This document shows, piece by piece, positions 28,214-39,553 of a stretch of 64,000 bases of DNA (position 1 is its first letter; every line of letters starts with the position of its first letter). The notes below the pieces were generated by a model, which saw nothing but the letters and a program-made list of their open reading frames with translations, was not told the origin of the DNA and ran no database searches. The position numbers and the translations under genes were made by a program. The stretch spans positions 1-64,000 of the forward strand of contig JACNLC010000056.1 in NCBI GenBank assembly GCA_014381725.1, read 5' to 3'. The DNA comes from Fidelibacterota bacterium (GTDB lineage: Bacteria; Fidelibacterota; Marinisomatia; SCGC-AAA003-L08; JACNLC01).

Positions 28214-28909
28214 TTAAGAGATAGGTTTACCTATGAATTTATAACCTTCACCGTGGACAGTTTTAATGTAACGAGGGTTGTTGATGTCCTCTAATAATTT
28301 TTTGCGTAACCTGCTCACTAAAAGGTCAACCGACCTATTAGTTGCTTCCCACTGAATACCTTTTAGATGTTCAATAATAAATTCTCTATTTAGATTTTCG
28401 TTGGGATTGTCAATAAACAATTTAAACACTTCGTATTCAGCAGTTGTGAGGTGAATCGTTTTACCGTCAACTTCAACTTTTTCGGTTAATCTATTGACTG
28501 TCAAACCTTCAAATGATCTAACATAAAGGTTAACAGATTGAGAAAAACTTCTTCGGATAACTGCCTGAATTTTTACCAGCAGTTCGTATGGATCAAAAGG
28601 TTTGTGTATGCAGTCATCTGCACCTAATTCTAAGGCGATTATTCTATCTGTAGCATCTCTAGGAGATAGCATAATAACGGGGACTTCTGAAATAGTGCGG
28701 ATTTCTTTAAGAATTGTAAACCAATCAGTGCCAGGTAACATAACATCTAAAATTACGAAATCTACTTTACGATTGTTTAGAAATTTAATACCATCTTCAG
28801 GTTTATGGAATGCAATAGCTGTAAAATCGTAAGATTGTAAAAAATTCTTAATAAATCCCGTAATCCGAGTTCCGTCATCTATTAGTAATATTTGATATTT
28901 ATTTGCCAT
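28214..28909 (-). CDS. OmpR/PhoB-family response regulator
   Basis: A 231-residue two-component regulator. The receiver domain has LIDDGTR (acid pocket), phospho-acceptor Asp in FVILDVMLPG near residue 54, and Lys in CIHKPFDPYEL near 103. The C-terminal winged helix has GKTIHLTTAEYEVFKLF, then NRSVDLLVSRLRKKL and KTVHGEGYKFI. No histidine kinase gene is adjacent. It closes the copper-efflux gene run on the same strand, so it may control metal genes, as CusR does. The partner kinase lies elsewhere or is one shared with other regulators. Confidence 0.9.
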   Translation of the reverse strand: MANKYQILLIDDGTRITGFIKNFLQSYDFTAIAFHKPEDGIKFLNNRKVDFVILDVMLPGTDWFTILKEIRTISEVPVIMLSPRDATDRIIALELGADDCIHKPFDPYELLVKIQAVIRRSFSQSVNLYVRSFEGLTVNRLTEKVEVDGKTIHLTTAEYEVFKLFIDNPNENLNREFIIEHLKGIQWEATNRSVDLLVSRLRKKLLEDINNPRYIKTVHGEGYKFIGKPIS

Positions 28910-28928: not shown

Positions 28929-29180
28929 TTATGCATGAATTACCTGATTCAGTCGTTTTATGTCTTTATCGTTAGGTATTCCGACTTGCACTACTTTACC
29001 ATCAACAACAATCGAAGGTACAGCTCGGATGTTATATTTGGCTGCCAACTGACAACAACTTCCATCAGTTCAATCACTAGCAAGATGAAGAGTAAACTCT
29101 AATTTCGGGAAGTTGCTTTTGATGAATTGAAGCATTGCATCACACAATCTGCAACCGGCACTAAAAATTTCAACTTTCAT
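28929..29180 (-). CDS. Thioredoxin-like protein with in-frame UGA (candidate selenoprotein)
   Basis: An 83-codon frame from ATG 29180 to TAA at 28929 with one internal TGA at 29072-29070 (codon 37). Before it: KVEIFSAGCRLCDAMLQFI with a CxxC motif, then LEFTLHLASD. After it: TDGSCCQLAAKYNIRAVPSI, then VVDGKVVQVGIP, a full thioredoxin/glutaredoxin-like end with the cis-Pro. I would expect Cys at codon 37, since TDGSCC follows directly. AACTGA and TCAGTT form a 6-bp stem starting at the last base of the TGA, as a bacterial SECIS hairpin would. The alternatives are a nonsense mutation or sequencing error. GGAG lies upstream. It belongs to the metal/redox gene run. Confidence 0.65.
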
Positions 29181-29203
29181 AAGATTCTTCTCCAATAATT
29201 AAA

Positions 29204-29455
29204 TTACGATTCCAAAGAATTTACAAATTTTAGAACATTTCCCAAACAACATTTTCCCGACGGATTTAATTCAGAACAACGACAATTATCATTTTGGATT
29301 TCCAATCGAATTTTATCAGGGATGTCAGTTGCACCGGTTCTCTCAATATCTTTTTTGATATGATCTTCAGTAAATTTAAAGCAATAGCATAACATCCCCG
29401 GAATGACTTTTGGGTTACAAGATTTATCCGATGGATTACAGCAATCCTTGTTCAT
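29204..29455 (-). CDS. CopZ-type N-terminal (2Fe-2S/zinc) domain protein
   Basis: An 83-residue Cys-rich protein: CCNPSDKSCNPK, then MLCYCFKFTEDHIKKDIERTG, then NDNCRCSELNPSGKCCLGNV. This is the pattern of the Fe-S and zinc-binding N-terminal domain of fused CopZ copper chaperones, here as a free protein. Nearby, the HMA half is encoded separately at 29483, so the two genes together equal a split CopZ. It is probably cytoplasmic and delivers or senses copper within the Cus cluster. Confidence 0.8.
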   Translation of the reverse strand: MNKDCCNPSDKSCNPKVIPGMLCYCFKFTEDHIKKDIERTGATDIPDKIRLEIQNDNCRCSELNPSGKCCLGNVLKFVNSLES

Positions 29456-29482: not shown

Positions 29483-29686
29483 CTATTTTTCATCTTCTAT
29501 CGTAAATCCAGCACCCTCAATCTTATTCCTAAGAGTGTAAGAGTCTGATGTTCCGTGAATTATTACGAATTTATTTGGTACATCAAATTCGATATTTTCT
29601 ACACCTTCTACATTATCCAATGTTTTTCTAATAGTCCATGCACAATTTCCGCACATCATATCTAGTACTTTAAAAGTATGTTTCAT
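29483..29686 (-). CDS. Heavy-metal-associated (HMA) chaperone, CopZ/MerP-like
   Basis: A 67-residue single HMA domain: FKVLDMMCGNCAWTIRKTLDNVEGVENIEF with the CxxC metal site (MCGNC) in the first loop, ending RNKIEGAGFTIEDE. There is no signal peptide, so it is cytoplasmic. GGAGATTACG precedes the start. It is followed after 27 bases by the CopZ-type Fe-S domain gene. Known relatives pass Cu(I) to ATPases or regulators; no copper ATPase is in this window. Confidence 0.88.
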   Translation of the reverse strand: MKHTFKVLDMMCGNCAWTIRKTLDNVEGVENIEFDVPNKFVIIHGTSDSYTLRNKIEGAGFTIEDEK

Positions 29687-29765: not shown

Positions 29766-30359
29766 CTATTTTACTAATCTCATTGGTTCAAGGTTCATCC
29801 CGCATCCTCCAGCTCTATCGCAAAGCCCTGGTTTATCAGACCGTATATGAGAATGCATCAACATAGGACAGCCATAGAAATCTGCTTTGTCTTCTGTTGT
29901 TATTACACCAGCTACCATATCCATTCCGCATTCGCTACATTTTCCGGCTTCTCTGCTTCGGATGTGTTTATGTGAATCCATTGGACAAGTATAGTAGATT
30001 ATTTTTTCTTCACCACTATTCGTCATTTTTCCCATTGAACCACACTTTTTGCCCTTCATTTTGCATTTGTCCATACCGCCTTTGTTGCAACCTTTGCTGG
30101 GTTTTTCGCTATCAACTTCGGTTACATCTTGGTGCTTGCCGTGATTTTTGCATTTATCACTTTTCGGGCAATCTTTGTGCTGACAATTTGCTTTGTCTTT
30201 ACATTTTTCACCTTTTGGACAATCTTTGTGTTTATCACAAGGTTTGTCACAACCTTGCTCGGTTGCATGTTTACATTTTTCATCACTTTTGTTACAGCAA
30301 TCTGCTTTATCACAAGCAAATAAACTAACAACAAATATCATAAAGAGTACTCTTTTCAT
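29766..30359 (-). CDS. Cys-rich metal-binding lipoprotein with two HMBD domains
   Basis: A 197-residue lipoprotein (lipobox LFAC). Residues 17-110 are a low-complexity Cys/Lys/His/Asp region with repeated CPKGEKCKDK-type and CKNHGKH units, rich enough to bind many Cu or Zn ions. The C-terminal half has two heavy-metal-binding (HMBD) modules, YYTCPMDSHKHIRSREAGKC then CGMDM, and YGCPMLMHSHIRSDKPGLC then CGMNLEP. The same module begins the CusB homologue of this cluster. It probably buffers copper or silver in the periplasm. The exact repeat number is hard to define because the unit varies. Confidence 0.85.
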   Translation of the reverse strand: MKRVLFMIFVVSLFACDKADCCNKSDEKCKHATEQGCDKPCDKHKDCPKGEKCKDKANCQHKDCPKSDKCKNHGKHQDVTEVDSEKPSKGCNKGGMDKCKMKGKKCGSMGKMTNSGEEKIIYYTCPMDSHKHIRSREAGKCSECGMDMVAGVITTEDKADFYGCPMLMHSHIRSDKPGLCDRAGGCGMNLEPMRLVK

Positions 30360-30455: not shown

Positions 30456-32924
30456 TTAATATCCCATTCCTTCAGAATCCATATCACCACCATTCATTCC
30501 GGAACCTCTTCTACCTCTTCGTTTATTATCTTTCATATCACCAAAACGATAGGTGAACGCCAATGAAATTGTTTGCCCCTCACGCCATCGTCTCCAAGAT
30601 TCAAAATTATCGGAACTGATAGAGAATTTTCTAGTATTAAAAACATCCCCTATTTTTAGTACAAGAGATCCTTTATTATCAAAAATATCTTTTTCTATTG
30701 CAATATCACAAAATCCAATCCCGCCAACGGTTCCTTGGAGAACTTCCATTGGTGACCTAAAACGCCCCGAAAATTGAATGTCAATATTTGTTGGTAAAGA
30801 TAAAGTAGCTGAAGCCATTCCTCTAACCCCTCTCGTATCTTTGTTTAAATCATCTTCAGATTCCTCTATGTCCTCAGAAAAGGCATAGATTATTGATTCA
30901 AAAGCATTAACGCTTGCCATTAAACTCAAATAAGGTAATGGTTTAAAATTAGAAACTAATTCAATTCCCATTTGTTTAGCATTCCCTAAGTTTTTAAATG
31001 TAAGCAATGTTGGCTCCACTGTTTCGATTCTATAATGGCGAATCATATCTTCGACATCTTTTACATAAAATGATATCATTTGACCCATAGCCATATAACT
31101 CATATCCCACGAATTAATATATTCTGGTTTTAAATATGGGTTTCCTTGCCGCTCAAAAATTGGGCTATATCGTTTTTTAAATGGATTGATATGCCAATCG
31201 TGTGGACGATTCACTCTTCTGCTATAACTTAATCGTAATGTTTGTTTTTCAGATATTTTATATTGGAAATGTCCGCTTGGGAATAGACTTTCATAAGTGT
31301 TGTTAAATATTTTGTCTGTTTCGCCAGTATCAATAATTGTTTCCGCGTGCTCAGCTCTTAGCCCTAATTGTAATCCAAACTCATCACTAAGTTGGTGACT
31401 AAAAATTAAATAACCAGCATAAATATTTTCATTGTATTGAAAATTCATTGTAACTAAAGAATCGTAGGATTCTTCTTCTTCATACTTGGAGATATCTTTC
31501 ATATATGACTTTGCACCAACTTCAAATTTAGTTTTATCTTTAATTGGATGACTATAATCAAATTGAAGCGTAGTGTTTTTGTATTCTTCATCTTGCTGAA
31601 CTTTCAAAATGTTTTGAGTTTGATCGATGTCGTCATAAGTGTCCGTTCTAGTTGATTCATTGTCTCCGAATGATTTAGATTGATTTACTTCAAATGAAAA
31701 CTTTTGTTGTTTGTTTTCAAAATCTTTATATAAACCCAAAGTCCAATCAATACTTTCGCCATTATCAAAGCTCTCATTGGATGATACATTTACTAAATCT
31801 ACTAAATCATCTGTACTTACCAACGATGAATCACGAATTTCATAATCAAAATCAGTGGAATTATTATGGTTTGTTCCGTGCAAATTATATGAAATATTTG
31901 AAGAAACTGATAATTTCTCTGTCAAATTATAATCTACTCCAAATTTTATCATTTGTGAATCGGACTTCCTAATTCCATTTGTGTTTGATTCAGTAAGAAG
32001 TGAGTCTGTTGTTATAGATTGCCAACCTGAACCATTATTTTCGTGAGATCTCCAAGAATAATTTGAATACAGATTTAGTGGTCCTGTTCGATAATTGATC
32101 ATTGCACTTGCATTATATCTATTATTATCACCGATATTTACAGAAGTGCTTCCATTAAATCCTTGTAATCTATTTTTCTTCAAAATAATGTTGATAATTC
32201 CAGCCATTCCGTCGGGGTCATATTTAGCAGATGGATTTGTGATAACCTCCACACTTTCGATGGTTGAAGCAGGGATGTTATCCAAAATTGCTCGTCGTCC
32301 ACTTCCGGTTAGCCCAGATGGCTTGCCGTCAACTAGCACTCGTACATTTTCGCTACCACGCAGACTAATATTCCCATCAATATCCACATCAACAGACGGT
32401 ACATTTCCCAAAACATCTGAAGCCGAACCTCCAATAGATGTTTTGCTCTGCTCTACATTGAAAATCATTTTATCAATAGTATTAATCAACAGAGGAGCTT
32501 CTTTAGTTACTTGAATTTCATCCATTTGCAGAATCCCTGGAACCAACATAATTGTTCCAATATTTTTGTCTAATCCCCCTCTTGGATTTAACATCACCGG
32601 TTTGATTGATTTCTTATCATATCCGATAAATTCTATGAGCAATTCATATTTCCCAGGCCTGAGAGAATTGATTTTGAACTTTCCAAATTCATCACTTACT
32701 CCACCCGTTACTAATTTACCATCACGAATACTTGTAACAGAAATTGACGCATATTCGATTGGAGCGGAGTTCAAAGAATCCACAACTGACCCAGAGATGC
32801 TTCCTTTCATATTCATCATTCTGCCACCACCAGGAGGTTGCGAAAACAACATTCCAAGTGTGCATCCTAATAACAATAATTTCCATTTATTTGTTTTATT
32901 TTTCATTTGTATTATTCCATTCAT
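30456..32924 (-). CDS. TonB-dependent outer-membrane receptor (OMP_b-brl_3 type)
   Basis: An 822-residue outer-membrane protein (816 if the in-frame ATG at 32906 is used). After the signal comes a CarboxypepD-regulatory-like domain (GSISGSVVDSLNSAPIEYASISV, about 40-120). Next is a plug domain with GGSASDVLGNVPSVDVD, GSENVRVLVDGKPSG and IPASTIESVEVITNPSAKYDPDG, then a barrel with GNPYLKPEYINSWDMS. It follows the CusA gene on the same strand. Its place in a metal efflux cluster is unusual: such receptors normally import. It may take up a metal complex or simply be co-regulated. Confidence 0.88.
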   Translation of the reverse strand: MNGIIQMKNKTNKWKLLLLGCTLGMLFSQPPGGGRMMNMKGSISGSVVDSLNSAPIEYASISVTSIRDGKLVTGGVSDEFGKFKINSLRPGKYELLIEFIGYDKKSIKPVMLNPRGGLDKNIGTIMLVPGILQMDEIQVTKEAPLLINTIDKMIFNVEQSKTSIGGSASDVLGNVPSVDVDIDGNISLRGSENVRVLVDGKPSGLTGSGRRAILDNIPASTIESVEVITNPSAKYDPDGMAGIINIILKKNRLQGFNGSTSVNIGDNNRYNASAMINYRTGPLNLYSNYSWRSHENNGSGWQSITTDSLLTESNTNGIRKSDSQMIKFGVDYNLTEKLSVSSNISYNLHGTNHNNSTDFDYEIRDSSLVSTDDLVDLVNVSSNESFDNGESIDWTLGLYKDFENKQQKFSFEVNQSKSFGDNESTRTDTYDDIDQTQNILKVQQDEEYKNTTLQFDYSHPIKDKTKFEVGAKSYMKDISKYEEEESYDSLVTMNFQYNENIYAGYLIFSHQLSDEFGLQLGLRAEHAETIIDTGETDKIFNNTYESLFPSGHFQYKISEKQTLRLSYSRRVNRPHDWHINPFKKRYSPIFERQGNPYLKPEYINSWDMSYMAMGQMISFYVKDVEDMIRHYRIETVEPTLLTFKNLGNAKQMGIELVSNFKPLPYLSLMASVNAFESIIYAFSEDIEESEDDLNKDTRGVRGMASATLSLPTNIDIQFSGRFRSPMEVLQGTVGGIGFCDIAIEKDIFDNKGSLVLKIGDVFNTRKFSISSDNFESWRRWREGQTISLAFTYRFGDMKDNKRRGRRGSGMNGGDMDSEGMGY

Positions 32925-33085: not shown

Positions 33086-36000
33086 TCAACTATTCACCTT
33101 TCTCTCTTCAATTGCAGAATACAAAACTGGCACCACAAACATTGTTAATGCTTCAAAAAGCATTCCACCAAAAACAGGAATTGCCATCGGAACCATTATA
33201 TCCGATCCTCGTCCGGTAGATGTTAAAATTGGCAATAACGCTAAAATTGTTGTAGCAGTTGTCATCACTGCTGGACGAACCCGTTTTTTCCCGGCAGACA
33301 TAACAGCCAAACGAATATCCTTAACCGTTTTTGGCTTTTTTGTTTCCATAGATTGTTTCAGATATGTTGCTATTAAAACTCCATCATCCGTTGCGATACC
33401 GAATAGAGCAAGAAAACCAACCCAAACTGCAACGCTCAAGTTAACTGGAGAAATATGAAACAGTTCCCGTAACCCCCAAAAATTCATAAACCAACCCTGA
33501 CTATAGAGCCAAATCAATATAAATCCACCACTCCACGCAACAAAAATTCCGATAAATACAAGAACAGTTGTGGAAAACTTCTTAAACTGAAAATACAGAA
33601 TCAGCATTATCACTAAAAGTGCCAACGGTAAAATGACCATTAACTTTTTCTGTGCCCTAATCTGATTTTCATACGATCCGGCAAAAGTAAAACTAACTCC
33701 GGATTGCAACTCTAATTCTCCATTAGCAATTTTCTCACTCAAAAATGATTTTGCATTTTCCACAACATCCACTTCCGCATAACCTTGCAGTTTGTCAAAC
33801 AGAACATAACCTATCAGAAAGCCGTCTTCTGATTTTATCATCTGCGGACCTCTACGATATTTTATTTCTGCAAGTTCTAATAATGGAATTTGCTGGCCAG
33901 TTGGAGTAGGAATCAAAATTCGACCAAGTTCATCAAAATCATCTCTAAGTTCTCGTGCATATCGCACACGAACAGCATATCGCTCTCGCCCTTCAACTGT
34001 TTGCGTCAATGGCTTTCCACCCAACGCTACTTCGATTACATTTTGTACATTTCCAATATGCAAACCAAATCGTGCAATTTTCTCTCTGTCTATTTCAATT
34101 TCCAGATACGGTTTCCCAACAATTCTATCGGCAAAAACAGTCTCAGGACTAACTCCGGATACAGATTTCAACAATTCTTCTAATTTGAGTCCGGTTTGCT
34201 CAATCGCATCTAAATTTTGTCCTTTGACTTTGACTCCCATAGGTGCTCGCATTCCGGATTGTAACATCACTAAACGAGTTGAAATAGGCATCAATTTTGG
34301 GGCAGAGGTTGTTCCGGGGATTTTGGTAACAGCTACAATTTCATTCCAAATATCGTCCATTGTTCGGATTTGGTCTCTCCACTGTCGAACGATTTCGCCA
34401 TTTTCTTCAACATATTCAGGAATTATATTGATAACTGTTTCCACCATCGAAAGCGGGGCAGGATCAAGTGCAGTTTCTGCTCGACCAATTTTCCCAACTA
34501 CAGATTCAACTTCCGGGACCGTTGCAATTGCCATATCTAGTTTATGTAAAACATCCAAAGTTTCACCCATACCAGCGTGTGGCATTGTTGTAGGCATATA
34601 CAAAAACGAACCCTCATCCAATGATGGCATAAATTCCTTACCCAACCCGGGGAATGCGTGAGATAATGCAACTATTGGGCGGATTTTTTTGATACTATCA
34701 GGCAACCAACCTGTCAGTTTAGGAAATCCCAACCAAATTGTTAAACCTAGAATCACAATGCTTGCAGGAATTGTAATAAATTGCTTTTTATGTGTTAAAC
34801 ACCACCCTAACAATTTTTCATATTTTTTCAAAAATAATTGAAACAAACCAAGAATGAGTGCCAAAAACGAAATCACAAAAAGGAAATTCCAAAAATCAGC
34901 GATATGTTTACCCAACGGACTCCAATGCAGTGAAAGGAATAATGTAACCAGTAAAATCAATAATCCGTTGCCGATTATTTGTCGTTTTGATTTTTTCTCA
35001 GATTTAGAATTTCCACCAAGTTTTTTTTGTCTTCTAAAAATTACCATCGCAAAAGTAGGTAAAATAAACAATGCGATGATTACAGAAGCAATAAGTGCAA
35101 AAGTTTTAGTATATGCCAATGGTTTAAACAATTTTCCTTCGGCGCCTGTCATTGTAAATATTGGCAAAAATGAAATCACAGTTGTAGAAATTGCTGTTAA
35201 AATGGCACCTCCCACTTCTTTGCTTGCCCGAGAAATAATTTTTAATCGTGATTCATCAACACCGGCTTTATTGAAATGTTTAAGGATATTTTCTGTCATT
35301 ATGATTCCCATATCCACAATGGTTCCAATGGCTATTGCAATACCAGAAAGTGCTACAATGTTGGCATCAACCCCAAACCATTTCATGCCGATGAATGCAC
35401 AGAGAACCGCTAATGGAAGCAATCCGGAAATCAATAGCGCAGAACGCAGATGCATTACCATAAAAATCACAACAATTATTGTGAGTAAAATTTCGTCAAT
35501 CAAAGCACGATTGAGTGTATCTAAAGTTTCGTGTATAAGTTCTGTTCTGTCGTAAAATGGAACAATTTTTACTTGACTAATAGTTCCGTCAGATAGTGTT
35601 TTGTTAGGTAATCCAAGGGATATTTCTGCTATTTTCTCTTTTACATTTTTGATTGTTGTCAACGGATTTTCACCATAACGGACAACCACAACTCCGCCAA
35701 CTGCTTCAGCTCCTTCTCTGTCCAACGCACCACGACGAAGAGCTGGTCCAAATGAAACTTCTGCAATATCACTAATGAGAATTGGAATATTGTCAGTAAC
35801 TTTCACAACAGCTTGTTCAATATCTTTTAATTCTTTTACAAATCCGATTCCACGGACTACATATTCCACATTATTAACTTCAATAGTTTTTGCACCTACA
35901 TCCGAATTAGAATGTTTCACAGCATTAAAAACTTCTGTTAGAGTAACACCCTTTGCAAACATTTTATCTGGATTAACATCAATCTGATATTCTTTTACAA

Positions 36001-36598
36001 ATCCTCCGACACTGGCAACTTCTGCCACACCTTCGGCAGACATCAATCCATATTTAACGGTGAAATCCTGAATCGTTCGAAGTTCGTCAAGACTCCATCC
36101 TCCTGCTGGATTTCCATCATGGTCGTATCCTTCGAGTGTGTACCAGAAAATCTGACCGAGACCAGTAGCATCTGGCCCGAGCGATGGAGAAATTCCTGTT
36201 GGTAATAGATTATCAGGTAAGGATGCTAGTTTTTCTAAAATTCGACTTCTTGACCAATAGAATTCGATATCTTCGTCAAATATTACATAAATGGTTGAAA
36301 ATCCAAACATTGAAATTGCTCGTACGGTTTTCACACCCGGAACTCCCATCAACGCGGATGTGAGAGGATAAGTGATTTGGTCTTCGATATCCTGTGGAGA
36401 GCGACCGTGCCACTCAGTGAAAACGATTTGCTGATTTTCTCCGATGTCAGGAATGGCATCCACTGGCACCGGATTTCGTTGAAGTCCGATATCCCAGTCA
36501 AACGGAGCTACCATTATCCCACTAAATGCAATCAAAAGTGTTGCTAAACCGACTGCTAATCGGTTGTTTAAGAAAAATTGAATTAATTTAGAAAGCAT
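33086..36598 (-). CDS. cusA: CusA/CzcA-type heavy-metal RND efflux pump
   Basis: A 1170-residue inner-membrane pump of the heavy-metal RND family. It has VDAIPDIGENQQIVFTEW near the N-terminus, the porter domains, and twelve helices with the duplicated layout. LSGIAIAIGTIVDMGIIMTENI (helix 4, with the proton-relay acid) and FLALFGIATDDGVLIATYLKQS near the C-terminus are family marks. Met-rich loops such as MPTTMPHAGMGE fit Cu/Ag rather than Zn/Co. The insertion between helices 6 and 7 (about 30 Lys/Gln-rich residues, then two extra hydrophobic segments) makes it longer than E. coli CusA (1047). It works with the CusB and OMF genes directly upstream. Confidence 0.93.
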   Translation of the reverse strand: MLSKLIQFFLNNRLAVGLATLLIAFSGIMVAPFDWDIGLQRNPVPVDAIPDIGENQQIVFTEWHGRSPQDIEDQITYPLTSALMGVPGVKTVRAISMFGFSTIYVIFDEDIEFYWSRSRILEKLASLPDNLLPTGISPSLGPDATGLGQIFWYTLEGYDHDGNPAGGWSLDELRTIQDFTVKYGLMSAEGVAEVASVGGFVKEYQIDVNPDKMFAKGVTLTEVFNAVKHSNSDVGAKTIEVNNVEYVVRGIGFVKELKDIEQAVVKVTDNIPILISDIAEVSFGPALRRGALDREGAEAVGGVVVVRYGENPLTTIKNVKEKIAEISLGLPNKTLSDGTISQVKIVPFYDRTELIHETLDTLNRALIDEILLTIIVVIFMVMHLRSALLISGLLPLAVLCAFIGMKWFGVDANIVALSGIAIAIGTIVDMGIIMTENILKHFNKAGVDESRLKIISRASKEVGGAILTAISTTVISFLPIFTMTGAEGKLFKPLAYTKTFALIASVIIALFILPTFAMVIFRRQKKLGGNSKSEKKSKRQIIGNGLLILLVTLFLSLHWSPLGKHIADFWNFLFVISFLALILGLFQLFLKKYEKLLGWCLTHKKQFITIPASIVILGLTIWLGFPKLTGWLPDSIKKIRPIVALSHAFPGLGKEFMPSLDEGSFLYMPTTMPHAGMGETLDVLHKLDMAIATVPEVESVVGKIGRAETALDPAPLSMVETVINIIPEYVEENGEIVRQWRDQIRTMDDIWNEIVAVTKIPGTTSAPKLMPISTRLVMLQSGMRAPMGVKVKGQNLDAIEQTGLKLEELLKSVSGVSPETVFADRIVGKPYLEIEIDREKIARFGLHIGNVQNVIEVALGGKPLTQTVEGRERYAVRVRYARELRDDFDELGRILIPTPTGQQIPLLELAEIKYRRGPQMIKSEDGFLIGYVLFDKLQGYAEVDVVENAKSFLSEKIANGELELQSGVSFTFAGSYENQIRAQKKLMVILPLALLVIMLILYFQFKKFSTTVLVFIGIFVAWSGGFILIWLYSQGWFMNFWGLRELFHISPVNLSVAVWVGFLALFGIATDDGVLIATYLKQSMETKKPKTVKDIRLAVMSAGKKRVRPAVMTTATTILALLPILTSTGRGSDIMVPMAIPVFGGMLFEALTMFVVPVLYSAIEERKVNS

Positions 36599-36612: not shown

Positions 36613-38280
36613 TTATTTATTCTCATCATTAACAGATTGATTTTCCCATGTGATTTCTGCGTGGCAAGGAATCATTTCTTTCCCAAAATATGGATTTTTC
36701 ACTTTTCCTGATTTTTGCAACCAATAACCACCATCTGGGGCAGGGCAAAACCGTTCTTCAAATTCGAGATTGATTGATTTCTCTCGCACGATTTGTCGAA
36801 TAACTTCCGATATTTCACGGAATGAATTACGCAATTCGGAGATATTTTGATTCGGTCGCATCGTTGGCTCCATAATTGGTTCAACGCCCTTAACACCCAT
36901 CGTTAATCTGTGGATTCCCATCGTTGACATATAAGCAGAATCGAAATCATCAATAGCCAAATATTCTTGTAAAGAAAAATAGTGATGGAGAACTTCTGCT
37001 AGAAGTTTATCGGATATTGTAACTACTACCTTTTCATCGTCATTCATATCTCCACTCATCATTGATGGTTTTGCTTCGAGTTGCATTGCAGAATCAATTT
37101 TAAATGTTCCGTGAGAAACTACATTTTCACCTTCAGATAATCCATCTAAAATAATATATTCGTCTTGAATTCGGTGCCCAAGCGTTACTTCGCGAAGTTC
37201 AAAAACAGGCTCTTCAGTATTGGGTTTCATTACATATACAATTGCTCTTTCGCCTGTTTTCATTACCGCTGATGATGGAACAATTAGTGGATTTGCTGAT
37301 ATGTCATCATCATTCGATATTACTTCTCCTTTTGCATTGAGTCTAACCTGAACTTGAGCCGAAACAAACATCTCAGGTTTTAGTTGATTATTGCTGTTGT
37401 CCACATTAACTCTCACGGATACAGTTCTAGTTTTACTGTTCATCGTAGGATGTATAAATGAAACAAGTCCTTCAAATAAGTCTCCCGGATAAGCGTCAAC
37501 TAAAAAAGTAACATTTTGGTTGATTTGAATTAGTGAAATATCCGATTCGTGAACATCAATATTTAACCATAAATTTCTTAAATCAGAAACAGTTGCGATT
37601 GGTGAACCTGTTTTCACATAATCACCTTCAGCAATATTGAGCTCAACAACTGTTCCAGAAATTGGAGCTGTGATAGATATTGTTTGTAGAATTTTTCCGT
37701 TGCTCTTTATTTCGGATATTTGTTTACTTGAAATTCCAAGTAAACGGAGTTTTTCAGAAGTAATTGATTCCATCGCTGTTCCTACAGATAACAAATATTC
37801 TTGTTGAGCAGAAATAAGTTCAGGAGAATATATTTCCATTAATTTGTCATTGTTTGAAATTTCAACTCCAACAAAATCAATAAATAGTTTATCGATTCTT
37901 CCGTCAGTCCAAGCGGTGATACTATTTGTTTTAGTTTCGTCGAAACCTAATTTTCCGGAAAAACGAATATGTTTTTCAGCTACTTCACGAGATACCAGAG
38001 TTGTTCCGATTTCTGCTAATTTCATTGCAGATTTCGACAATTTCAGTTCTACTTCTGATACTGAATCATCCGAATCTAACGGGATCAAGTCCATAAAACA
38101 AATTGGGCATTGACCAAATTCCGGCAACTGAATTTGTGGATGCATTGAGCAGGTCCAAACCGTCGCTTTTTCTTCGGATTGATGTGTGTTGGCAGGATGA
38201 CCGGTTGAGCTTCCAATCCAATATCCAATACCAAGTGCAATTACAATCAAAATAATTATTATTTTATAATATTTCTTCAT
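36613..38280 (-). CDS. cusB: CusB-type periplasmic adaptor with N-terminal HMBD and C-terminal DUF3347-like domain
   Basis: A 555-residue membrane-fusion protein. It has an N-terminal anchor (IIIILIVIALGIGYWIG), then an HMBD module VWTCSMHPQIQLPEFGQCPICFMDLIP (residues 41-68). The adaptor core is WTDGRIDKLFIDFVGVEISN, ISAPISGTVVELNIAEGDYV, IATVSDLRNLWLNIDVHES. A C-terminal metal-related domain of about 130 residues ends in FCPAPDGGYWLQKSGKVKNP and GKEMIPCHAEI. It bridges CusA and the outer-membrane factor and hands metal to the pump. The extra end domains are common in FCB-group CusB proteins. Confidence 0.92.
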   Translation of the reverse strand: MKKYYKIIIILIVIALGIGYWIGSSTGHPANTHQSEEKATVWTCSMHPQIQLPEFGQCPICFMDLIPLDSDDSVSEVELKLSKSAMKLAEIGTTLVSREVAEKHIRFSGKLGFDETKTNSITAWTDGRIDKLFIDFVGVEISNNDKLMEIYSPELISAQQEYLLSVGTAMESITSEKLRLLGISSKQISEIKSNGKILQTISITAPISGTVVELNIAEGDYVKTGSPIATVSDLRNLWLNIDVHESDISLIQINQNVTFLVDAYPGDLFEGLVSFIHPTMNSKTRTVSVRVNVDNSNNQLKPEMFVSAQVQVRLNAKGEVISNDDDISANPLIVPSSAVMKTGERAIVYVMKPNTEEPVFELREVTLGHRIQDEYIILDGLSEGENVVSHGTFKIDSAMQLEAKPSMMSGDMNDDEKVVVTISDKLLAEVLHHYFSLQEYLAIDDFDSAYMSTMGIHRLTMGVKGVEPIMEPTMRPNQNISELRNSFREISEVIRQIVREKSINLEFEERFCPAPDGGYWLQKSGKVKNPYFGKEMIPCHAEITWENQSVNDENK

Positions 38281-38288
38281 AATACCTC

Positions 38289-39476
38289 CTAAAGTGTTTT
38301 CCCAATTAATTCATAAAACCGGGCTTTTGTTGTTTGAAAAATTTTGTGTAGAGATGCGTTTTCTAATTTGAGATTTAGCAAAATTAGAACGGCATCCATA
38401 AATCTGTCAAAATCAATATCATTTGACAAATAAGCAGTTTCAGAAACAGTAAACGATTGTTCAGCTTTTGGAATAAGTTCATTTTGATATAATAGAGTTT
38501 TTCTCTGCAAATTTTCCATTTCAAACAATAGTCGTTCTGATTGAGATTTTAATAATTCTTCTGTGTCAAAAACCAGATATTCCGTAGATGTTAATTCTGA
38601 TTTTGCAGATTGTTTCTTTGCCATATTTTTGCCAAACCATAAAGGGAGAGTTAACCCAAATCGAATATCGATTGGATTGTCTTCGACAGCACCATCCAAC
38701 ATAATATAATCGGCTCCTATTTTGAAATCCGGTAAGTAAGATAAATTTGCCAGATGCACTTTGGTTTTTGCAATATCTACCGATATTGACACCGTCTGCA
38801 ACTCGGGATTCTTTGCAAAATCCTTAAATTCAGGGATAGTCAATTCAATTTCATCAAAAACGATATCTCCGGGATTTTGTCCACCCAATAAAGATTTCAT
38901 TTCACGATATAGGATTATTTCTTCATTGACAATTGTAGCTAGATTATCTTCTTGTTTTAGAACTTCGAGTTGAATTTGTATAAGATTTGCGTGATTTACA
39001 GAAGCCGTTATATATTGTGTTGTTAGCACAGATTCCAAACGCTTGAGTATCACCAATAGATTTTCTGTGATTGAAGTTTCTGTCTGTAAATATCGAAGCT
39101 TTTCATAAACAGTGATGACTTCCCGTTGTATTTCCAATTGTGTTTTTTGTAAACTTACTTTTTCTTTTTCTGCACGCAATAACCCAATCTTCTTTTTTGA
39201 TGCCAACTTCCCGAATCCGGGAATTGATTGACTAATTCCAATTTTCCATTCTTGCGGACCGGTTTTAGTTTCAATGGGTGTAAGAAAATATCCTGCGGAC
39301 AGCGATGGGTCTGGCAGAGAACTCAATACTTTCGCTTCTGACTTTTGTTTGCTTACCAATTCCATTTTACTTTGTATTTTTAGGTTATTTTCAAACGCAA
39401 TTGATAATAATTTTTCTAAATTTGTTTCGTTCCCAATAAGTAGAGAACAATATATTAAAATTATAAAATACTTCAT
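38289..39476 (-). CDS. TolC-family outer-membrane factor of the Cus system
   Basis: A 395-residue outer-membrane efflux protein. I start it at 39476, where GAGGGAAAT precedes the ATG and a signal peptide (KYFIILIYCSLLIGNE) follows. The open frame from 39521 would add 15 residues with no export signal. Long amphipathic helices repeat twice, as in TolC/CusC: SLPDPSLSAGYFLTPIETKTG, ISQSIPGFGKLASKKKIG, and later LPDFKIGADYIM, IDIRFGLTLPLWFGKN. It is transcribed just before the adaptor and pump and forms the exit channel. Confidence 0.88.
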   Translation of the reverse strand: MKYFIILIYCSLLIGNETNLEKLLSIAFENNLKIQSKMELVSKQKSEAKVLSSLPDPSLSAGYFLTPIETKTGPQEWKIGISQSIPGFGKLASKKKIGLLRAEKEKVSLQKTQLEIQREVITVYEKLRYLQTETSITENLLVILKRLESVLTTQYITASVNHANLIQIQLEVLKQEDNLATIVNEEIILYREMKSLLGGQNPGDIVFDEIELTIPEFKDFAKNPELQTVSISVDIAKTKVHLANLSYLPDFKIGADYIMLDGAVEDNPIDIRFGLTLPLWFGKNMAKKQSAKSELTSTEYLVFDTEELLKSQSERLLFEMENLQRKTLLYQNELIPKAEQSFTVSETAYLSNDIDFDRFMDAVLILLNLKLENASLHKIFQTTKARFYELIGKTL

Positions 39477-39553
39477 ATTTCCCTCGTGGTTTATATACAA
39501 AAAACCTAATTCCGGATACAAAACCCCCGGACTAAAAACAGGAAATTAGAAGT

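Follow-up and report, generated by a model that had tools for sequence, protein, structure and literature searches.

Two Brachyspira proteins, Sec.1 and Sec.2, are the described selenoproteins that most resemble the one reported here. They carry the Pfam domain PF13192 and, in the excerpts of PMC5330540 that are available, appear as small thioredoxin-fold selenoproteins with a bacterial SECIS element and relatives that use cysteine. Their selenocysteine (Sec) is carried by a short extension of the N terminus, at alignment column 26, ahead of a thioredoxin domain that starts at column 53, and Sec.1 has no CxxC motif (PMC5330540). The review PMC13188914, in its available parts, counts 119 families and assigns proteins that differ in Sec position to subfamilies of their own; its Table 1 holds only the two Brachyspira entries for PF13192. 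Other thioredoxin-like bacterial selenoproteins in these parts are the HUIPC-motif selenoprotein (NF047660) and SaoT (NF040730), for which the listed motif is UxxC, and Table 1 places SaoT in the metal- or organometal-linked set. The theme of Sec in the handling of soft metals is shared by a MerT-type mercuric transport protein, a MerT/CopZ fusion (NF045683), the CopZ-family 2Fe-2S forms 1 and 2, and a UxxU metal-binding protein (NF041115), again according to the available parts of PMC13188914.

Here we describe a gene from a 64,000-nucleotide stretch of contig JACNLC010000056.1 (the window), a thioredoxin-like frame in which a UGA codon is almost certainly decoded as selenocysteine. Its predicted Sec37 is situated inside the PF13192 domain, 24 residues past a retained CxxC. 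Since Sec of the Brachyspira proteins lies in the N-terminal extension, Sec37 would be a new Sec site for this domain, the two being compared by description only and from excerpts of PMC5330540. The best NCBIfam match of the window protein was MTH895/ArsE (TIGR00412; 1.7e-8 over residues 7 to 82), but with 34.7 bits, where the cut-off is 62, it is a non-member by that model, and the solved MTH895 structure (1ilo) matched weakly (E 0.024). NF047660 reached 13.6 bits, far below its cut-off of 105, and the window protein contains no HUIPC. NF040730 was absent among its NCBIfam matches, and no model in NCBIfam 20.0 covers it. The metal-linked MerT-type, MerT/CopZ, CopZ-family, and UxxU selenoproteins differ from the window protein in fold and gene, and the CopZ-like neighbor in the window is a Cys protein. 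Within the accessible text of the open-licence PMC literature, preprints being outside the scope, no description was found of this thioredoxin subfamily or of the exported protein discussed below.

Gene, reading frame, and predicted fold

The gene occupies positions 28929 to 29180 of the minus strand and comprises 83 codons. With TGA read through, the minus strand is open from 28929 to 29195 and contains only one TGA. The likely start is the ATG at 29180-29178, 9 nt after a GGAG resembling a ribosome-binding site (29190-29193, minus strand), and the stop is the TAA at 28929-28931. The UGA is codon 37 (29072-29070) and immediately precedes TDGSCC, as originally described. With U for the TGA, the translation reads MKVEIFSAGCRLCDAMLQFIKSNFPKLEFTLHLASD-U-TDGSCCQLAAKYNIRAVPSIVVDGKVVQVGIPNDKDIKRLNQVIHA, in which no signal peptide could be recognized by eye. 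When C was substituted for U, the Pfam model Thioredoxin_3 (PF13192) was passed with 45.5 bits (cut-off 24.8). The match extends over residues 6 to 82 of an 88-aa reading and includes both flanks of the UGA, in agreement with the claim that the frame keeps its family sense on either side of codon 37.

An AlphaFold2 model of the window protein, built with two UGA-containing relatives, had a pLDDT of 90.3 and a pTM of 0.78, with the elements E3-7, H11-23, E30-33, H41-48, E56-59, E62-66, and H71-81. Glutaredoxins and thioredoxins were the best Foldseek matches, and sequence matches in the PDB included the thioredoxins 1fo5 and 1nho and the thioredoxin-like protein 2k8s. In the model, helix 1 is opened by C10-x-x-C13 of the C-R-L-C motif (residues 10 to 13; 29142-29153, minus strand). 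Sec37 is placed in the loop past strand 2, and the D-G-S-C-C block (residues 39 to 43; 29052-29066, minus strand) continues from this loop to the start of helix 2, which is opened by C42-C43. A proline occupies the usual thioredoxin loop. Because strands 1 and 2 of the thioredoxin fold are parallel, the CxxC, Sec37, and C42-C43 would be expected to cluster on one edge of the modeled protein. The area of Sec37 and C42-C43 is presumably comparable to the region of Cys62 and Cys69 in human thioredoxin.

Conservation and decoding of codon 37

A match search among 100 relatives yielded 6 genomes, and a profile search of 245 genomes of the phylum (Neomarinimicrobiota) yielded 20 with any match. TGA was present at the same codon in 4 of these 20, namely, in the window's own genome (G000) and in G086, G004, and G001, whose proteins are 54 to 57% identical to that of the window. 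Two others (G061 and G237) have TGC at this codon, and the remaining 14 gave weak thioredoxin-like matches that lack the [DE]-[UC]-x-DGSCC block. When the search was extended to a set of 392 genomes, it also returned G348, which belongs to another phylum and has TGC at the Sec site, and G316, which matches distantly and has no Cys at this place. The alignment thus contains, next to the three further genomes with UGA, three relatives with the cysteine that the original prediction had expected at this position. DGSCC is invariant in all seven subfamily members (four UGA and three Cys forms) and the CxxC is kept in all except G061.

The Cys form of G061 (L051:7761-7985) reads CRLS for CRLC and has a TAA before the usual end, while its mer neighbors look intact; this copy is possibly decaying.

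Beyond these genomes, plasmid searches returned only cyanobacterial thioredoxins, with 11 records for the window protein and 19 for the Cys form, none of the latter exceeding 46% identity. Neither Cys nor Sec is found at the site in the two cyanobacterial plasmid relatives that were examined. Together with G316, they indicate that the residue is dispensable for the family as a whole. A profile search of viral contigs gave 51 candidate stretches, of which none was confirmed, and phages searched with the Cys form gave no match.

The genome from which the window derives (2.18 Mb, 98% complete) was searched for selA, selB, selC, and selD, and all four were present. SelA (438.6 bits) and SelB (379.2 bits, cut-off 242) are encoded side by side on one contig. 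The tRNA-Sec scored 72 bits (Rfam cut-off 47) and has the anticodon TCA. SelD (391.3 bits) has a single in-frame TGA of its own, in the motif GAG-U-ACK (L015:1531-1533); an in-frame UGA in SelD is known elsewhere. SelA and an over-threshold tRNA-Sec were also detected in 7 of 7 phylum relatives tested (G001, G002, G003, G004, G061, G086, and G237). SelA is present in G348 and absent from G316.

Downstream of the UGA, the four UGA genes exhibited pS values of 0.68 to 0.82, close to saturation, versus pN values of 0.11 to 0.29, indicating that this part is translated and constrained. Purifying selection was as strong past the UGA as ahead of it. For the closest pair, G004 and G001, dN was 0.12 and dS 1.75 after the UGA, compared to 0.23 and 1.06 before it.

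A sequencing or assembly error at 29070-29072 has practically no probability left, even though the assembly is split into 88 contigs, one of which contains the window, since the same codon occurs in independent assemblies (MAG contigs JACNLN010000120.1 and JAJRUW010000010.1, and G001). It is also highly improbable that the UGA is read by a near-cognate tryptophan tRNA or under a variant code. Sec itself is beyond measurement by sequence, which leaves room for such a reading, but the counterparts have Cys and never Trp, and the genome holds the full Sec machinery, including a SelD with its own UGA. In addition, the 42 non-overlapping open reading frames of at least 150 aa in the window end in TAA (25), TGA (9), or TAG (8), so UGA serves as an ordinary stop here, as had been stated. 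Equally improbable is a pseudogene, that is, a former TGC or TGT gene that is now dead or truncated. A lone stop in an open frame is the usual appearance of a nonsense mutation, and the G061 relative does have a premature TAA. However, the TGA occurs at the same codon in four genomes of three genera, with synonymous change near saturation and a constrained protein past the stop, and the frame and the ribosome-binding-like site are intact. With Sec machinery, a conserved UGA, and Cys counterparts all found, the candidate selenoprotein proposed originally is well founded, and we regard Sec insertion at codon 37 as very highly probable from the genomic data.

A candidate recoding hairpin

Bacterial SECIS elements, according to the rule used by bSECISearch, are hairpins after the UGA with a small loop that has a G in its first two positions and lies 16 to 37 nt from the UGA. 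A 6-bp hairpin of the window gene, GUUGUC-AGUU-GGCAGC (29041-29056, minus strand), fits this rule; its loop, AGUU, begins 19 nt past the UGA and has G at the second place. The hairpin is kept in all four UGA genes with the consensus G[UC]UG[UC]C-AGUU-GGCAGC and with 24 of 24 cells paired, two of the pairs being C-G in some genes and U-G in others. The residues encoded there (SCCQLAA) are also conserved, and the hairpin was assessed against synonymous recodings. The exact hairpin arose in 639 to 672 of 20,000 recodings per gene (about 3.3%) for each of the four genes, values which are non-independent probabilities because the genes are related. In a looser energy test with 2,000 synonymous recodings, the counts were 126 for G000, 22 for G086, 35 for G004, and 19 for G001, and the copy in the window is therefore the weakest of the four. 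Among the 34 residue-invariant codons, only 3 show no nucleotide difference between the four UGA genes. These are the consecutive codons 44 to 46, CAG-UUG-GCA, which span the loop and the 3' arm of the hairpin.

The Cys forms have no hairpin comparable to that of the UGA forms. Under the same rule, their best hairpins had energies of -0.1 kcal/mol (G061) and -3.8 kcal/mol (G237), with none in G348, versus -5.1 to -10.2 kcal/mol for the UGA forms. With only four UGA genes among the 245 phylum genomes, pair changes in the hairpin are one-sided, and no two-sided (compensatory) change was found among these four.

The original prediction had placed the SECIS element in a different 6-bp stem, AACTGA/TCAGTT (29047-29070, minus strand). 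This stem exists and starts from the last base of the UGA, but conservation is lacking, with 18 of 24 cells paired across the four UGA genes and all six pairs intact in the window copy only. It is probably not the SECIS element, as judged from the aligned genes. The two hairpins share bases and are mutually exclusive. In the window sequence by itself they compete, neither rising above shuffled sequences, and the RNA folds no better than shuffles (z of -0.17 for 61 nt and -0.87 for 40 nt). An Rfam scan of the window detected one tRNA only and no match to a SECIS family. As a control, SelD of the same genome has a 6-bp hairpin with the loop GUU at +33, a weak support since a stronger hairpin with the loop AUC is located nearer. 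Taking the comparisons together, we infer that the candidate hairpin at 29041-29056 may direct Sec insertion via SelB.

Metal-resistance context and proposed role

In the window, the gene is part of a run of nine minus-strand genes that begins with an outer membrane efflux protein in a CusC-like position (38289-39521; PF02321) and ends with an OmpR-type response regulator (28214-28909), the next gene downstream after a gap of 19 bp. In between, the run encodes a CusB-like adaptor with a heavy-metal-binding domain (36613-38280; PF16576 and PF19335), a heavy-metal efflux pump of the CusA/CzcA family (33086-36598; TIGR00914, 815 bits, cut-off 701), and an outer membrane protein resembling TonB-dependent receptors (30456-32924; PF14905 and PF00593). 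These are followed by a cysteine-rich protein with a heavy-metal-binding domain (29766-30359; PF19335), an HMA heavy-metal-binding protein (29483-29686; PF00403, 1e-13), and, 23 bp upstream of the thioredoxin gene, a CopZ-like cysteine-rich protein of the 2Fe-2S type (29204-29455; NF047645 at 1.4e-13 and NF045877 at 5.2e-10, both below the curated cut-offs). The CopZ-like neighbor (83 aa) has Cys throughout, though the matched model NF045877 covers a selenoprotein form.

The copper-efflux setting given for the gene applies to the window, where the cluster is Cus-like and no mer genes were seen beside the gene in the stretch read, but the clearest link of the family is to mercury-resistance operons, and the copper/silver-type cluster of the window represents a variant of this setting. 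All three Cys forms adjoin a MerA above the curated cut-off. In G237, MerA scored 551.5 bits (cut-off 454.5) and is accompanied by a MerR-family regulator. The neighbors in G061 are MerA (543 bits), an ArsR-type regulator, and a MerTP-like fusion that does not reach its cut-off. In G348 (L060:4467-11597), a CusA-like pump, a MerR-type regulator, the thioredoxin, a MerTP-like fusion, and MerA (574.7 bits) follow one another in compact order. MerR-type or heavy-metal regulators were also located near both cyanobacterial plasmid relatives examined. The UGA copies of G004 and G001 adjoin the exported protein described below, with no merA, merT, or merR in the stretches read, and that of G086 has metabolic neighbors only and no metal genes alongside.

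We propose that UGA codon 37 would be decoded as Sec by the cell's own SelA, SelB, SelD, and tRNA-Sec, directed by the hairpin at 29041-29056 within the gene. The product would be a small cytoplasmic thioredoxin-fold protein with two Cys, one selenol, and two more Cys. This thiol and selenol cluster would handle a soft metal, Cu(I) or Ag(I) in the window and Hg(II) in the relatives, with Sec adding affinity and reactivity. The protein might act as a shuttle, passing metal between small HMA-, CopZ-, or MerT-type proteins and a pump or reductase, or in repair, reducing metal-blocked or oxidized thiols of metal-binding proteins; we consider these two versions about equally probable. A Sec-containing thioredoxin-fold protein with a SECIS hairpin and a part in soft-metal handling is, as a whole, very probably the best explanation. 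The soft-metal role (Cu, Ag, or Hg), which derives from the gene neighborhoods, is moderately likely when taken separately.

The main rival to that role is an ordinary thiol-disulfide reductase, such as a peroxiredoxin partner or a general repair enzyme, to which the metal genes are simply adjacent. The Brachyspira PF13192 selenoproteins are said, in the excerpts of PMC5330540, to neighbor general redox genes. A general function would agree with the thioredoxin/glutaredoxin fold, the CxxC, and the usual proline, as well as with the G086 copy, which is free of metal neighbors. It accounts less readily for the metal-resistance genes next to the window copy and all three Cys relatives, and for the metal-type MerR regulators beside both cyanobacterial relatives examined. 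Nor does it predict U-x-D-G-S-C-C, an extra chalcogen group that is not known from ordinary thioredoxins. A general reductase is thus a substantial alternative, though the less favored one.

In G004, G001, G237, and G061, the thioredoxin gene adjoins a gene for an exported protein (the QUPLU protein) that begins, in its mature form, with GQ-U-PL-U-SN and has two in-frame TGAs past a signal-peptide-like start (L053:7281-8243, plus strand; L050:4551-5498, minus; L052:7149-8099, minus; and L051:8149-9051, plus). A match to the G004 copy was present in 81 of the 245 phylum genomes, and 73 of 86 match rows have two TGAs, such rows being spread over 73 of the 245 genomes. In the best 20 loci, which were read (L062 to L081), TGAs are found at QUPLU in every case, as is a hairpin with the invariant loop GGUC, 17 nt past the second UGA. 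One stem pair of this hairpin is U-A in 7, C-G in 9, and U-G in 4 of these best 20 loci, a compensatory pattern. The protein had no Pfam or NCBIfam match, and the window's genome gave no match to it. An AlphaFold2 model from the single sequence had a pLDDT of 32 and is useless, and an outer membrane barrel is accordingly our own reading only. Across the phylum, the QUPLU protein is probably an outer membrane protein with two Sec residues.

The exported protein occurs in G061 a second time, as a distant copy (L051:9103-10011) that reads C-A-M-C in place of U-P-L-U and that may be the Cys counterpart of the form with two Sec residues.

The Sec thioredoxin and the QUPLU protein might be two parts of a selenium-based soft-metal defense of Neomarinimicrobiota, an idea which we put forward as doubtful. 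If it were true, surface and cytoplasmic selenols would capture Hg(II) or Cu(I) for transfer to MerA or a Cus pump, with Cys taking the place of Sec in the thioredoxin of some lineages. The selenoproteome of the phylum looks under-described, because a second, apparently phylum-wide protein with two Sec residues turned up beside the first. Standard annotation would turn the thioredoxin gene into a 36-residue fragment. Read through, it would represent a new selenoprotein subfamily with a Sec position that is undescribed for PF13192 in the available parts of PMC13188914, PMC5330540, PMC9312934, and PMC12013277. It would tie selenocysteine to copper and mercury operons in a marine phylum that is widespread and uncultured, and enlarge the small group of selenium proteins that are linked to toxic-metal handling.
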